A stretch of DNA of 34,236 nucleotides, taken from a bacterium. GTDB taxonomy: Bacteria; Patescibacteriota; Microgenomatia; Daviesbacterales; UBA10151. A program made the position numbers and the translations under genes. The notes under the pieces were generated by a model that made no database searches, was not told where the DNA came from, and worked only from the letters and a program-made list of their open reading frames with translations. The first letter of the stretch is position 1. Each line of letters starts with the position of its first letter. The stretch lies in assembly GCA_030647265.1 (NCBI GenBank), contig JAUSJM010000018.1, forward strand, positions 1 to 34,236. The letters run 5' to 3'. Shown piece by piece: positions 1,819 to 5,631 of this stretch.

Positions 1819-3216
1819 ATGGACCCAAGAAAACTTTTAATGAAGATTAAACCCCTCCAGACAGCAGTTCTGGTCCTTTCCCTTGTAGTCCTCTCTTTAG
1901 GAGGCTATCTCCTTTATCAAAAAGCTATTTCTCCCCACCCTCAAGTAGCAGGAGTCTCTTCTCCTTCCCTTCCCGGGAAGTTTGATGATGATTCCTTTTT
2001 TGATGTCCTAGAAGCAGGAGCAGTAGTTAATCCCACTTACCAGGATATCCAATCTGATGTTAATATCTCAGGCATAGTTCAATTAAACCAAAATACTGCT
2101 CCTTCTCCTACTACAGATAAGTTATATAATGTGGCCGGAGACCTTTTTTGGAATGGCATTAAACTTAACTCTGGAGGTTATTGGACACTCTCCGGCAACA
2201 ACTTATATCCTACCACCATAGGTAACAACGTCGGCATCGGAACAGCGGGACCGGGAGCGAAACTACATGTTTCCGGAGGTTCTAGTTCTTCGGATAGACC
2301 ACTGAAACTTCAGTCGACGTCTCAATATGAAGTAGCTGAACTGATAGGGCCTTTATGGACATCTCTGTTGCTTACTAATTCGGGTGGTACTACATCCTTT
2401 ATATCAAATTCTGGTAGTGGCTTAGCTTTTGGTGCAGATAGCACGACGTGGAGTACTACTGATTTGTTTATTGCAAATGCAGGCAACGTTGGCATCGGGA
2501 CGGCGAGTCCAGCAAATAAGTTGGATGTTAATGGTGATGTTGCTTTATCAGGTAAACACGCCTTCAGAAGCAGCGACAGCTGGTTAAGACTTAATCAAGA
2601 TGGTGCTTTTACTTCTGGCGTACACACTCCAGGAGTGTTTGCTCCAGGGTCGTTAAATGTCGGAGGAGCCGGTGGTTGGGGTAATCCAGGCTTTGGTAAT
2701 GCCTGGTTTGTCGGCAACGTCGGCATCGGGACAACAAACCCTTCTCAAAAGCTGGATGTCGCAGGTTATGTCAAAGGTCAGAGTGGGCTTTGTATGAACA
2801 ATGATTGTAGAGCTAGCTGGCCGTCAGGAGGAGATGGAACTTTAAGCGCAATCAAAACTTGGAACTGGTATGCCGCCGGCACTGCGTGGGGAGATGGGAA
2901 TGATTCATATCATGAGCTGGCAGGATGGACTTTTACTGCTCCTGTTGCCGGTGTAGTGGAAGCCAATGGTCAATGGGGACTACAAGATGATGATGACAGT
3001 CATATCGCCATGAGACTTGCTGTTGATTCTCAATACGGGCCAGAAGGTGTTTCTGATAATCCGGCATCATTTAGAGGTGGTATCTCTCAACAATTCTTAG
3101 TAGGTGCAGGTTCTCATCGATTTGCACTGCAGTGGCGCTCCAATGGAGGCTGCTGTAATTACTATAGAGGTGTTTCAGTGTCTGCCAAATTCCTTCCTTC
3201 ACAGGCGAGGAACTGA
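1819..3216 (+). CDS. VGIGT-repeat surface fibre protein
   Basis: A 465-aa surface protein of the tail-fibre/adhesin style. A membrane anchor at about residues 12-34 is followed by an extracellular part carrying three NVGIGT...KLxVxG repeats (about residues 137, 224 and 300), the pattern that precedes fibre heads in phage tail fibres and bacterial adhesins. The C-terminal domain (from SAIKTWNWYAAGTAWGDG to YRGVSVSAKFL) looks like a compact beta-sandwich, with paired Cys (GGCCNY). The LYNVAGDLFWNGIKL segment is the usual spacer before VGIGT repeats. It is the second gene of the operon starting at 1368. The reading frame ends soon after a tandem CCTT duplication; without it the frame would continue to 3403, so the present C-terminus may be a frameshift product. 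Confidence 0.75.
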   Translation: MDPRKLLMKIKPLQTAVLVLSLVVLSLGGYLLYQKAISPHPQVAGVSSPSLPGKFDDDSFFDVLEAGAVVNPTYQDIQSDVNISGIVQLNQNTAPSPTTDKLYNVAGDLFWNGIKLNSGGYWTLSGNNLYPTTIGNNVGIGTAGPGAKLHVSGGSSSSDRPLKLQSTSQYEVAELIGPLWTSLLLTNSGGTTSFISNSGSGLAFGADSTTWSTTDLFIANAGNVGIGTASPANKLDVNGDVALSGKHAFRSSDSWLRLNQDGAFTSGVHTPGVFAPGSLNVGGAGGWGNPGFGNAWFVGNVGIGTTNPSQKLDVAGYVKGQSGLCMNNDCRASWPSGGDGTLSAIKTWNWYAAGTAWGDGNDSYHELAGWTFTAPVAGVVEANGQWGLQDDDDSHIAMRLAVDSQYGPEGVSDNPASFRGGISQQFLVGAGSHRFALQWRSNGGCCNYYRGVSVSAKFLPSQARN

Positions 3217-3403
3217 GATAACCACTTCAGTTACTATTTGGTACGGAGCCATTAGTGGTGCAAGGTCTGGTCATGGTTGTGATGGAGGTCGTCTTCCCGG
3301 CCAATTAAGAACTTATAAAGCTTCTGTCGGTACCGGATCACACAGTTTTTGGATTAATGTTTGGACCGGACCTTCCGTATGTAGAAAGTTGACTTGGGAG
3401 TAG
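3191..3403 (+). pseudogene. out-of-frame C-terminal extension of the fibre gene
   Basis: After the fibre stop, the +1 frame encodes about 62 protein-like residues (ITTSVTIWYGAISGARSG ... GTGSHSFWINVWTGPS ... KLTWE) with the same Gly/Ser/aromatic style as the fibre head. The sequence TTCCTTCCTTC at 3190-3200 holds a tandem CCTT. Removing one copy joins the two frames into one ORF ending at 3403. So this is either a genuine slippage mutation, phase-variable, or a sequencing error. Its last codons form copy 1 of the 19-bp direct repeat. Confidence 0.6.
3385..3403. repeat. 19-bp direct repeat, copy 1
   Basis: AAAGTTGACTTGGGAGTAG, identical to 4758-4776. This copy ends the fibre reading frame (KLTWE-stop). 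Confidence 0.95.
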
Positions 3404-3421
3404 GAAGTTTTATCCTGAAAA

Positions 3422-3457
3422 GTTTTCATTGACAATGAAAACAATTTATGATAAGAT
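3422..3457 (+). promoter_or_regulatory. ATPase promoter within a perfect palindrome
   Basis: TTGACA (3429-3434), 17-bp spacer, TAAGAT (3452-3457); the ATG at 3468 is 10 nt further. The -35 box sits at the centre of a 21-bp palindrome with 10-bp arms (GTTTTCATTG, centre A, CAATGAAAAC; 3422-3442), which looks like an operator for a dimeric repressor, possibly autoregulation. Confidence 0.7.
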
Positions 3458-3467
3458 TTCACTTAGA

Positions 3468-4757
3468 ATGAAATTCTCTGATGAGATACGCGCCTTATTA
3501 ATAGAGCAGCGGGAAGAAATTCTCCATAAAGACTTAGGAATAGAGAGAAATAAACTTGCCGAGATCGCGTCATATAAGAACACGCCATTTCCGGTAGTGA
3601 TATCCGGCTTACGTCGAGCAGGAAAGTCAACACTACTGGCACAACTGGCCCACCAATTCTATCCGGATAATAACTATTTCTATGTTAATTTTGAGGATGA
3701 GAGGTTTCTTAGCTTTACAGTAGCAGATTTTACTAAACTGCACGAGCTTTTAATAGAACTTTTTGGAAATCAACAAGTCTTCTTAATGGATGAGGTACAG
3801 AATATAAAAGGGTGGGAAAGCTTTGTTAATAGAATGATCAGAGCAGGATACAAATTTTATATTACCGGCTCTAACGCCTCGCTTCTTTCCAAAGAACTCG
3901 GCACAAAGCTAACCGGACGCTATGTTCCGGTTGAGCTTTTTCCCTTTTCTTTCAAAGAGTACTTAAAGTTTAAAAAGTTGGACCTGCCGGATTTAAAACT
4001 TTTAACAACCGTCCAGAAAGGTGAGCTAAAAAAGGCTTTTAGAGATTATTTACAGGAAGGCGGAGTACCACAAGCCCTACAATATCCCCAGGTGCCAATA
4101 TATAAGACTCTCTATGACGATATTATAAGTCGGGATATTGGAGAAAGGTATAAATTAACCGATACTAAACCACTCCGGGAACTGACATTTTATCTTCTGA
4201 GTAATATTTCCTCCCTTGTTTCTTATAACAAGCTTAAAGGGCTGTTACAACTTGGGAGTGTTAATACTATATCCAGCTACATAGATTATTTAGAGGCCAG
4301 TTGGATGCTTTTGGTGGTTTTCCGTTACGCCTTTTCGGTTAAAAAACAACAGATTGCAAATAAGAAAGTCTACTGTATTGATACGGGACTTGTTAAAGCG
4401 GTGGCGTTTTCTTTTTCCGAGGATAAAGGCAAATTTTTAGAAAATTCTGTCTTTCTAAAACTGCGCAGACTATATGAAGATGACATTTACTATTATAAAA
4501 CAGAGACAGATAAGGAAGTTGATTTTTACCTTCCTAAAGAGAAAACCTTTATCCAGGTTTCTCAAACTATAACCGAACCTACTGCCAGGGAAAGAGAGAT
4601 ACAGGCTTTACTTGAAGCGATGAATGAGGTAGAAAAAAGCACCGGAATAATATTAACGGAAGATGACAATGAGACTCTTGAGTTTGGGGATAAAATAATA
4701 ACTGTATTACCGGTATACAAGTGGTTGTTAGATGAAAAACAAATTAGTTCACTTTAA
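3468..4757 (+). CDS. AAA ATPase with DUF4143 domain
   Basis: A 429-aa P-loop ATPase of the AAA_14/DUF4143 type common in archaea and CPR bacteria; cellular role unknown. Walker A is GLRRAGKST (about residues 47-55), Walker B VFLMDEVQ (about 105). The ITGSNASLL and LTGRYVPVELFPFSF segments are typical of the family. The C-terminal DUF4143 part contains VYCIDTGL and TETDKEVDFYLP, with spaced acidic residues resembling a PD-(D/E)XK nuclease core, an inference only. The ATG at 3468 is preferred over the track's TTG at 3429 because the TTG lies in the -35 box. It is a single-gene unit with its own promoter between 19-bp direct repeats, so it was probably acquired as a cassette unrelated to the surface genes around it. 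Confidence 0.88.
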   Translation: MKFSDEIRALLIEQREEILHKDLGIERNKLAEIASYKNTPFPVVISGLRRAGKSTLLAQLAHQFYPDNNYFYVNFEDERFLSFTVADFTKLHELLIELFGNQQVFLMDEVQNIKGWESFVNRMIRAGYKFYITGSNASLLSKELGTKLTGRYVPVELFPFSFKEYLKFKKLDLPDLKLLTTVQKGELKKAFRDYLQEGGVPQALQYPQVPIYKTLYDDIISRDIGERYKLTDTKPLRELTFYLLSNISSLVSYNKLKGLLQLGSVNTISSYIDYLEASWMLLVVFRYAFSVKKQQIANKKVYCIDTGLVKAVAFSFSEDKGKFLENSVFLKLRRLYEDDIYYYKTETDKEVDFYLPKEKTFIQVSQTITEPTAREREIQALLEAMNEVEKSTGIILTEDDNETLEFGDKIITVLPVYKWLLDEKQISSL

Positions 4758-4776
4758 AAAGTTGACTTGGGAGTAG
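4758..4776. repeat. 19-bp direct repeat, copy 2
   Basis: Identical to 3385-3403 and starting directly after the ATPase stop codon. It supplies TTGACT (4762-4767), the likely -35 box of the next gene. Confidence 0.95.
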
Positions 4777-4800: not shown

Positions 4801-5631
4801 ATGATAACTTCTACTAAAGCCTTCTCCCTAATTTTTAGCCTTACCATTCTAGCTGTCCTCTTTTACCCTCAACCCACTAAAGCTGAACTGGCTACCTCTT
4901 ATGACTGGATGGGGTTGTTTATAGTGGGAACTGAAGATACTGATGCCAGTGATATCCCCCTCACTAATAACGCTGTCATGCAAAAAGCTTTACTCTGGAA
5001 AACTACCGGCAACAACCCCGGCAGCCCTTGTTTAACTTCTTTACCCAGCACCAGGCCATGGCTTGCCGGAGGCTGTTCTCTCCAACTCCCCAGCTCCATG
5101 GATCCCGGAGCCTATGAGTTCCGTCTTTATGGCAACTACCGCTCTGACAACTTGGTCTTCCTTCTCTCCCATTCTAAACAATTTTGGATTGACTGGCCCA
5201 ACCCAGCCCTTACTGCCACCTGTGCCTTTAACGGCGACAGGATCAATATTGACCTCTCCTGGCCTACGCTGCTCGGTATTTACCCCTTAATCTACCCCCT
5301 CACTGACCACTACAAAATCTATGATAACGACTCCTTCCTCGATATCAGCTACATTAACACCTACCGAGATGTGGTGAACCCCAATACCAACCATAGCTAT
5401 TACGTAATAGGTTATAACAGTTTTGGTTCATCTCCTCGTTCTAATATCGTCCCCGTTGCTGCTAACTCTGCCAACTGCCCGGGAGGATTAATGGCCACCC
5501 CTACCCCTACTCCCAGTGTTGCCCCCACCTCTACTCCTACTCCCACTACAGCCCCTACTGCTACCCCCACTCCCGGTGCTAACAGCCCCTGGCTGAAAAC
5601 TTCCGGCGGTGATGTTCATTCCAACCAATGA
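4801..5631 (+). CDS. secreted protein with Pro/Thr-rich C-terminal linker
   Basis: A 276-aa exported protein of unknown function. It starts with a signal peptide (hydrophobic core about residues 8-22, then PTKAEL), followed by a beta-rich extracellular region with two Cys pairs and aromatic motifs, an Fn3-like stretch (INIDLSWPTL ... DHYKIYDN), and a Thr-Pro repeat linker (about residues 232-260) of the kind that spans cell walls. The last residues, SPWLKTSGGDVHSNQ, look like the start of another module that is cut short. The stop overlaps the next start (ATGA at 5628-5631), so translation is coupled and the two products are probably partners or halves of a once longer protein. Confidence 0.75.
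   Translation: MITSTKAFSLIFSLTILAVLFYPQPTKAELATSYDWMGLFIVGTEDTDASDIPLTNNAVMQKALLWKTTGNNPGSPCLTSLPSTRPWLAGGCSLQLPSSMDPGAYEFRLYGNYRSDNLVFLLSHSKQFWIDWPNPALTATCAFNGDRINIDLSWPTLLGIYPLIYPLTDHYKIYDNDSFLDISYINTYRDVVNPNTNHSYYVIGYNSFGSSPRSNIVPVAANSANCPGGLMATPTPTPSVAPTSTPTPTTAPTATPTPGANSPWLKTSGGDVHSNQ

Follow-up and report, generated by a model that had tools for sequence, protein, structure and literature searches.

How does a single ATPase gene come to lie between two perfect 19-bp direct repeats within a run of surface-protein genes, and what placed it there? The locus in question belongs to a patescibacterial genome and lies in the window, by which we mean the whole stretch of 34,236 nucleotides that was analysed. 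An initial annotation, made from the sequence alone, had described an AAA/DUF4143 ATPase gene inserted between such repeats, and the two copies are indeed exact, with a spacing of 1373 nt (Table 1). The ATPase gene is the only reading frame between them; the cassette starts at the base right after the left copy, and the right copy starts at the base right after the TAA stop codon. The 19-mer is not a dispersed sequence, since a search of the 785-kb genome with up to 3 mismatches allowed returned the two copies and only one further match, with 3 mismatches, on another contig. Two 540-nt stretches drawn at random from the window rarely have more than 14 nt in common.

Table 1. Features of the ATPase cassette and its neighbours in the window.
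Feature	Position	Strand	Remark
Upstream surface-protein gene	1819..3403	+	Apparently frameshifted near 3180-3216; what remains ends in the left repeat
Left direct repeat AAAGTTGACTTGGGAGTAG	3385..3403	+	Holds the last codons and the TAG of the upstream frame
Cassette body: 18-nt filler, paired-dyad operator/promoter, ATPase gene through its stop	3404..4757	+	No DNA homology to other cassettes beyond such a unit
Dyad 1 GTTTTCATTGACAATGAAAAC	3422..3442	+	-35 box within
Sigma-70-type promoter TTGACA-17-TAAGAT	3429..3457	+	From sequence; -35 at 3429-3434, -10 at 3452-3457
Dyad 2 GATTTCACTTAGAATGAAATT	3455..3475	+	Covers the start codon; centre exactly 33 bp from that of dyad 1
DUF4143 ATPase gene, 429 aa	3468..4757	+	STAND-like NTPase, winged helix and PD-(D/E)XK-like C-terminal domain; E325/D352/Q363, no ExK; ATG at 3468, TAA at 4755-4757
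Right direct repeat, identical to the left copy	4758..4776	+	First base follows the ATPase stop codon
Downstream secreted-protein gene	4801..5631	+	Adjoins the surface gene in ATPase-free relatives

The annotation further held that neither neighbour was damaged and that the downstream -35 box was kept, and each of these statements stands in part. Copy 1 finishes on the TAG of the upstream frame and so preserves it, but the upstream gene had already changed frame: its frame from 1819 to 3216 stops at 3216, a different frame is used by the tail (3104-3403), whose end lies in the repeat, and the preserved stop is that of the shifted tail. The change is apparently a frameshift or a sequence error, located upstream of the insertion. 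Read in that other frame, the tail (3200-3400) matches the terminal part of a 500-aa surface protein encoded in G016, a genome of the same family. Copy 2 does hold TTGACT 18 nt ahead of TATATT, but an independent downstream promoter is doubtful because the flanks, when joined in silico, give TAG, then only 24 nt, then the next ATG.

Two genomes of the same family carry the corresponding locus in ATPase-free form. In G016 the surface gene (..GLCMNNDCR..), a 262-aa homologue of the window's 276-aa gene, a 293-aa homologue of its 475-aa gene and, on the opposite strand, uppS stand in intact order, with an ATPase-free gap of 102 nt between the surface gene and the 262-aa homologue; in G017 the surface gene, of 468 aa, is followed after 44 nt by the homologue, again with no ATPase. 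This synteny makes an insertion in the lineage of the window the simplest account of the ATPase. The empty site that the annotation had predicted, with one copy of the 19-mer, was thus recovered as to the ATPase but not as to the repeat: a single-copy 19-mer was not found in G016 or G017, and because the C-terminal domain of the surface gene differs there, these genomes can demonstrate the absence of the ATPase only.

Direct repeats recur around other DUF4143 genes, as the annotation had suggested might be the case. The best ungapped repeat between the 500-nt flanks was taken, with a score of at least 14 required, and neighbouring or other ORFs served as controls. Repeats were present at 24/68 DUF4143 genes as against 4/105 other ORFs in a first sample, at 16/63 as against 4/122 in a second sample from new genomes (p=1.1e-5), and at 20/75 as against 6/149 in a third, which consisted of window-type homologues from GTDB, archaea included (p=1.8e-6). 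After four genomes counted twice were dropped, the pooled result is 59 of 201 relatives (29%) with flanking direct repeats of 14-187 bp compared with 14 of 376 neighbouring ORFs (3.7%), counts that include non-independent tandem neighbours and two near-identical strains (L268 and L269) and in which some of the control hits are ATPases of the same kind. These two strains are differently named Thermoplasmata MAGs that have one ATPase and one repeat in common within a locus that is 99.6% identical. Between tight flanks there were 43 exact matches of at least 11 bp, where 1.5 were expected from swapped flanks. All of the data come from assembled genomes, many of them MAGs, and one array described below contains a gap of Ns, so coincidental repeats or assembly errors are a concern; three samples with matched controls, the swapped-flank null and the syntenic empty sites nevertheless make chance or artefact extremely improbable as the explanation.

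The duplicated stretch does not have a constant length. Across the family the repeats range from 11 to 187 bp, the identity between copies is variable as well, and the repeats are specific to their locus, often gene ends, with no evident common core between sites. By hand count, 17 of the 22 long neighbour genes that overlap a repeat do so at their 3′ end. Mismatches between repeat copies fall at codon positions 1, 2 and 3 in numbers of 31, 22 and 63, a third-position bias that would be expected if one copy remains functional while the other decays. The bias is strong in L134 and L264, and in long repeats such as these both copies look as if they had once been functional. A repeat scoring at least 14 is missing at about 70% of the genes, among them some recently transferred pairs (L131, L152, L233, L237), so duplication is frequent rather than universal and is either not obligatory or often lost.

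The DNA common to genomes of different families consists of the promoter and gene only and ends 0-11 nt past the stop codon. The copies in L128 and L131 share 93.5% identity over 1247 bp, have unrelated flanks and cease to match within the stop codon; further cross-family pairs match over 1211 bp at 83% and over 1202 bp at 79%, and L233 and L237 match at 88.9% over 1373 bp, to 5 nt after the stop. Several recently shared copies are without a long repeat, and no integrase gene was found travelling with the shared units. The initial idea of a self-contained, duplication-flanked single-gene cassette is upheld by the ATPase-free syntenic relatives together with the similar repeats at other DUF4143 genes.

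A single site can be used more than once. In G009 a window-type ATPase, 75-76% identical, lies between two copies of GTTAGGGTCTA, and in G032, of the same genus, the corresponding junction has a single TTAGGGTCTA and lacks that ATPase. G032 also carries an array (L056:2800-6460) of the form S0-AbiEii-S1-C-S2-B-S3, in which an AbiEii gene, preceded by a small ORF, is followed by ATPase C and ATPase B and the spacers are four copies of a 22-45-bp repeat from the start-codon region of a surface gene. At this place G009 carries ATPases A, B and C, with the order of B and C changed and an assembly gap (Ns) between those two. ATPases B and C both belong to PDC-S01, the PADLOC candidate family discussed below, and this one genus holds three unlike ATPases and an AbiEii gene at one repeat-punctuated site. 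Elsewhere, repeats flank 7/30 AbiEii operons when the left flank is extended to 1300 nt so as to clear the partner gene (0 were seen at 500 nt), the matched control set itself including DUF4143 and AbiEii genes, and they flank 3/30 Fic genes. A Micrarchaeote locus (L284:2080-5334) has one repeat in three copies, which bound first a PIN-toxin (PIN/VapC) gene segment and next a DUF4143 ATPase. In G032 a GrpB-family gene sits between duplicates of the 3′ end of a TrmH/SpoU methylase gene, an end that in G004 directly adjoins a DUF4143 ATPase (L077:563-1927, L093:4104-4652); the SpoU gene of the window, at 752-1375, has no insert. Taken as a whole, the comparisons show that the units spread horizontally with one gene each and insert at gene ends, that the target is frequently duplicated over a variable length, and that unlike cassettes re-use sites.

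In principle, arrays of this kind could grow and shuffle in an integron-like manner without an integrase, if cassettes were excised as circles through their repeats and re-entered a matching gene end in any cell. Such homology-driven exchange would account for unlike cassettes with the same repeat between them in G032 and for the different B/C order in G009, and the concentration of mismatches at third codon positions (63/116, most clearly in L134 and L264) is also in its favour. The perfect repeats of 19, 11 and 17 bp, however, are below the usual needs of homologous recombination, the short repeats are unlike between related cassettes, the G009 order spans the Ns, and the first repeat at any site would need another origin, so that we consider this route rather unlikely. 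Repeated use of one site could instead mean a dedicated recombinase, that is, an enzyme of the Xer, tyrosine or serine type that acts in trans and inserts cassettes at gene ends. The re-use of one site by unrelated cassettes is what such an enzyme would produce, and the Fic gene in L174 lies between 26-bp repeats that resemble a tRNA 3′ end, the classic integrase target. Yet neither the sequences nor the lengths of the repeats have an evident core in common between sites, the units carry no integrase gene, and inspection of four plasmid-borne homologues revealed no convincing repeat and no dif-like motif nearby, which together make a recombinase in trans very unlikely.

The nature of the encoded protein bears on whether the cassette could move itself. 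Pfam assigns the window protein to AAA_14 (E 2e-36) and DUF4143 (E 2.2e-19), its Walker A and B motifs are conserved (GLRRAGKST, FLMDEVQN), and among PADLOC profiles it matches PDC-S01 (AAA_14 plus DUF4143) with E 2.4e-111; by profile match, the gene is a member of this candidate defence system. The statement in the annotation that these ATPases have no known role is thus outdated (PMC12988326). That report presents PDC-S01 as a fusion of an ATPase with a domain of the PD-(D/E)XK superfamily, ranks it fourth in frequency among prokaryotic defences and counts about 39,000 copies of it, although it treats PDCs as mostly not yet validated experimentally and PDC-S01 as a candidate (PMC12988326). 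The window subtype differs from PDC-S01 in that ExK is absent: where an active PD-(D/E)XK nuclease has D...(D/E)xK, the window subfamily has EVDF...IQVS, and Q363 is at least 90% conserved among 66 family members.

A sequence search for a solved structure found none. The fold was predicted as a confident AlphaFold2 model (66-sequence input, pLDDT 90.9). The best structural matches of the model are STAND NTPases, namely the archaeal PAB2304 and SSO1545, CED-4 and plant NLRs, with Avs ranked lower; residues ~20-320 align to STAND structures with Z of 16-17 and rmsd of 4-5.5 over 250-286 residues. At the level of the fold, the predicted protein has an NTPase core and winged helix in the STAND arrangement. 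It shares this fold with the archaeal STAND ATPases and with the NLR/CED-4-type STAND NTPases, from which it differs by the addition of a nuclease-like C-terminal domain and by having no repeat sensor domain. Pfam and PHROGs scans detected no transposase family in the window protein, and a pattern scan detected no relatives in viral contigs.

The annotation was right to give the ATPase its own promoter, since TTGACA-17-TAAGAT precedes its ATG. This promoter coincides with a pair of like dyads, whose centres are exactly 33 bp apart in 28/78 window-type family members and 32-34 bp apart in 32/78, compared with 1/289 control stretches. The dyad sequence varies by lineage while the spacing is constant, GTTTTCA..TGAAAAC being the form in bacteria and ATTTGGT..ACCAAAT that in DPANN archaea. 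The latter dyads were seen, 33 bp apart, upstream of the ATPase in the DPANN homologues L259-L265. The 33-bp pair is mostly confined to the window subfamily; among other DUF4143 genes single dyads are mildly commoner than in control stretches (25/131 vs 29/478), 2 of the 25 being runs of N. The two dyads probably bind the putative winged-helix domain of the ATPase itself for autoregulation, and since dyad 1 lies over the -35 box and dyad 2 over the start codon, autorepression would be the simplest reading. Self-regulation of this type could let the cassette work wherever it is inserted, and the conserved pair gives this uncharacterised family a concrete regulator site that can be tested.

The dyads are also relevant to the possibility that the cassette is a one-gene transposon or homing-type element, in which the ATPase would bind its own dyads and the PD-(D/E)XK-like domain would make staggered nicks far apart, giving long target duplications. 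Consistent with this, an NTPase, a winged helix and a nuclease-like region are combined in one protein (see also PMC12988326), paired dyads mark the left end of many window-type cassettes, and the unit borders are sharp. On the other hand, the right end of the cassette has no dyad matching those at the left, and repeat length is not fixed. The annotation had suggested movement through the nuclease-like domain, and this is argued against by the absence of ExK from window-type proteins, by a repeat rate that is not tied to ExK (33/95 ExK genes and 10/45 of the Q type) and by AbiEii, Fic, PIN/VapC and GrpB cassettes with the same footprint. We therefore hold self-mobilisation to be unlikely.

The reading that we prefer, and regard as reasonably probable, is that 3404-4757 is a horizontally acquired one-gene cassette, comprising a candidate anti-phage STAND-like ATPase and its paired-dyad promoter/operator, that was inserted by a host-driven process with a 19-bp target duplication and was subject to selection for sparing the neighbours. 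The cassette would have entered the cell as foreign DNA, and a host process, either template switching or a short-homology single crossover, may have joined it to the chromosome by copying or re-joining a short overlap. Joining through a short overlapping stretch would explain why the duplicated stretch is variable in length and often absent. In the window the target would have been the 24-nt junction between two co-directional surface-protein genes, and the nuclease-like domain of the cassette would not be the integrase. Selection might then retain cassettes that are useful or addictive, protecting the cell, as well as insertions in which the duplicated gene end spares the neighbour. A point against host joining is that the border at the stop codon is sharper than random joining predicts, unless selection for compactness is strong. 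A more ambitious proposal can be made, of an integrase-free, repeat-delimited cassette system of DUF4143/PDC-S01 ATPases, AbiEii operons and other compact defence/TA genes in Patescibacteria and DPANN archaea, in which each insertion duplicates the target gene end, the duplicate becomes the next landing site, the 33-bp dyads act as recognition end and operator, and the ATPase is active in its own transfer; we consider it speculative and improbable.

Integron and pdif cassettes pack unlike genes into small units with repeats in between, and IS elements generate target duplications. The cassettes described here are built in the same compact way, but their repeats appear to be ends of genes, specific to the site and variable in length, rather than attC or dif; target duplication is in common with IS elements, but there is no fixed-length TSD and no transposase or recombinase aboard the unit. 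The same domain plan, as compared by description, is found in arCOG03166, an AAA+ ATPase that carries fused HTH and RecB nuclease domains, occurs in archaeal dark-matter islands and is listed as a likely defence or plasmid gene (PMC4158269). In the available part of that study direct repeats served to locate virus or plasmid attachment sites, and single-gene cassettes are not described there (PMC4158269). Likewise, the available text on PDC-S01 does not mention mode of mobility, repeats or 33-bp paired dyads (PMC12988326), and hardly any paper in the literature searched refers to DUF4143 or COG1373 by name.

PDC-S01 is reported to be among the most abundant suspected prokaryotic defence systems (PMC12988326), and the repeats bear on how it spreads without a visible mobile element. 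They provide insertion footprints, empty sites and exact cassette ends. With these, defence-gene transfer into the tiny genomes of symbionts can be tested directly, and the repeats could lead to new defence or addiction genes that they surround. The recurrence of the footprint in bacteria and archaea shows how a suspected anti-virus gene of very wide occurrence can spread as a package of one gene. As a minor observation on the contig itself, positions 1-342 of the window lie inside the 5′ part of a 16S rRNA gene on the minus strand, and 16S rRNA genes are a usual place for contig breaks.
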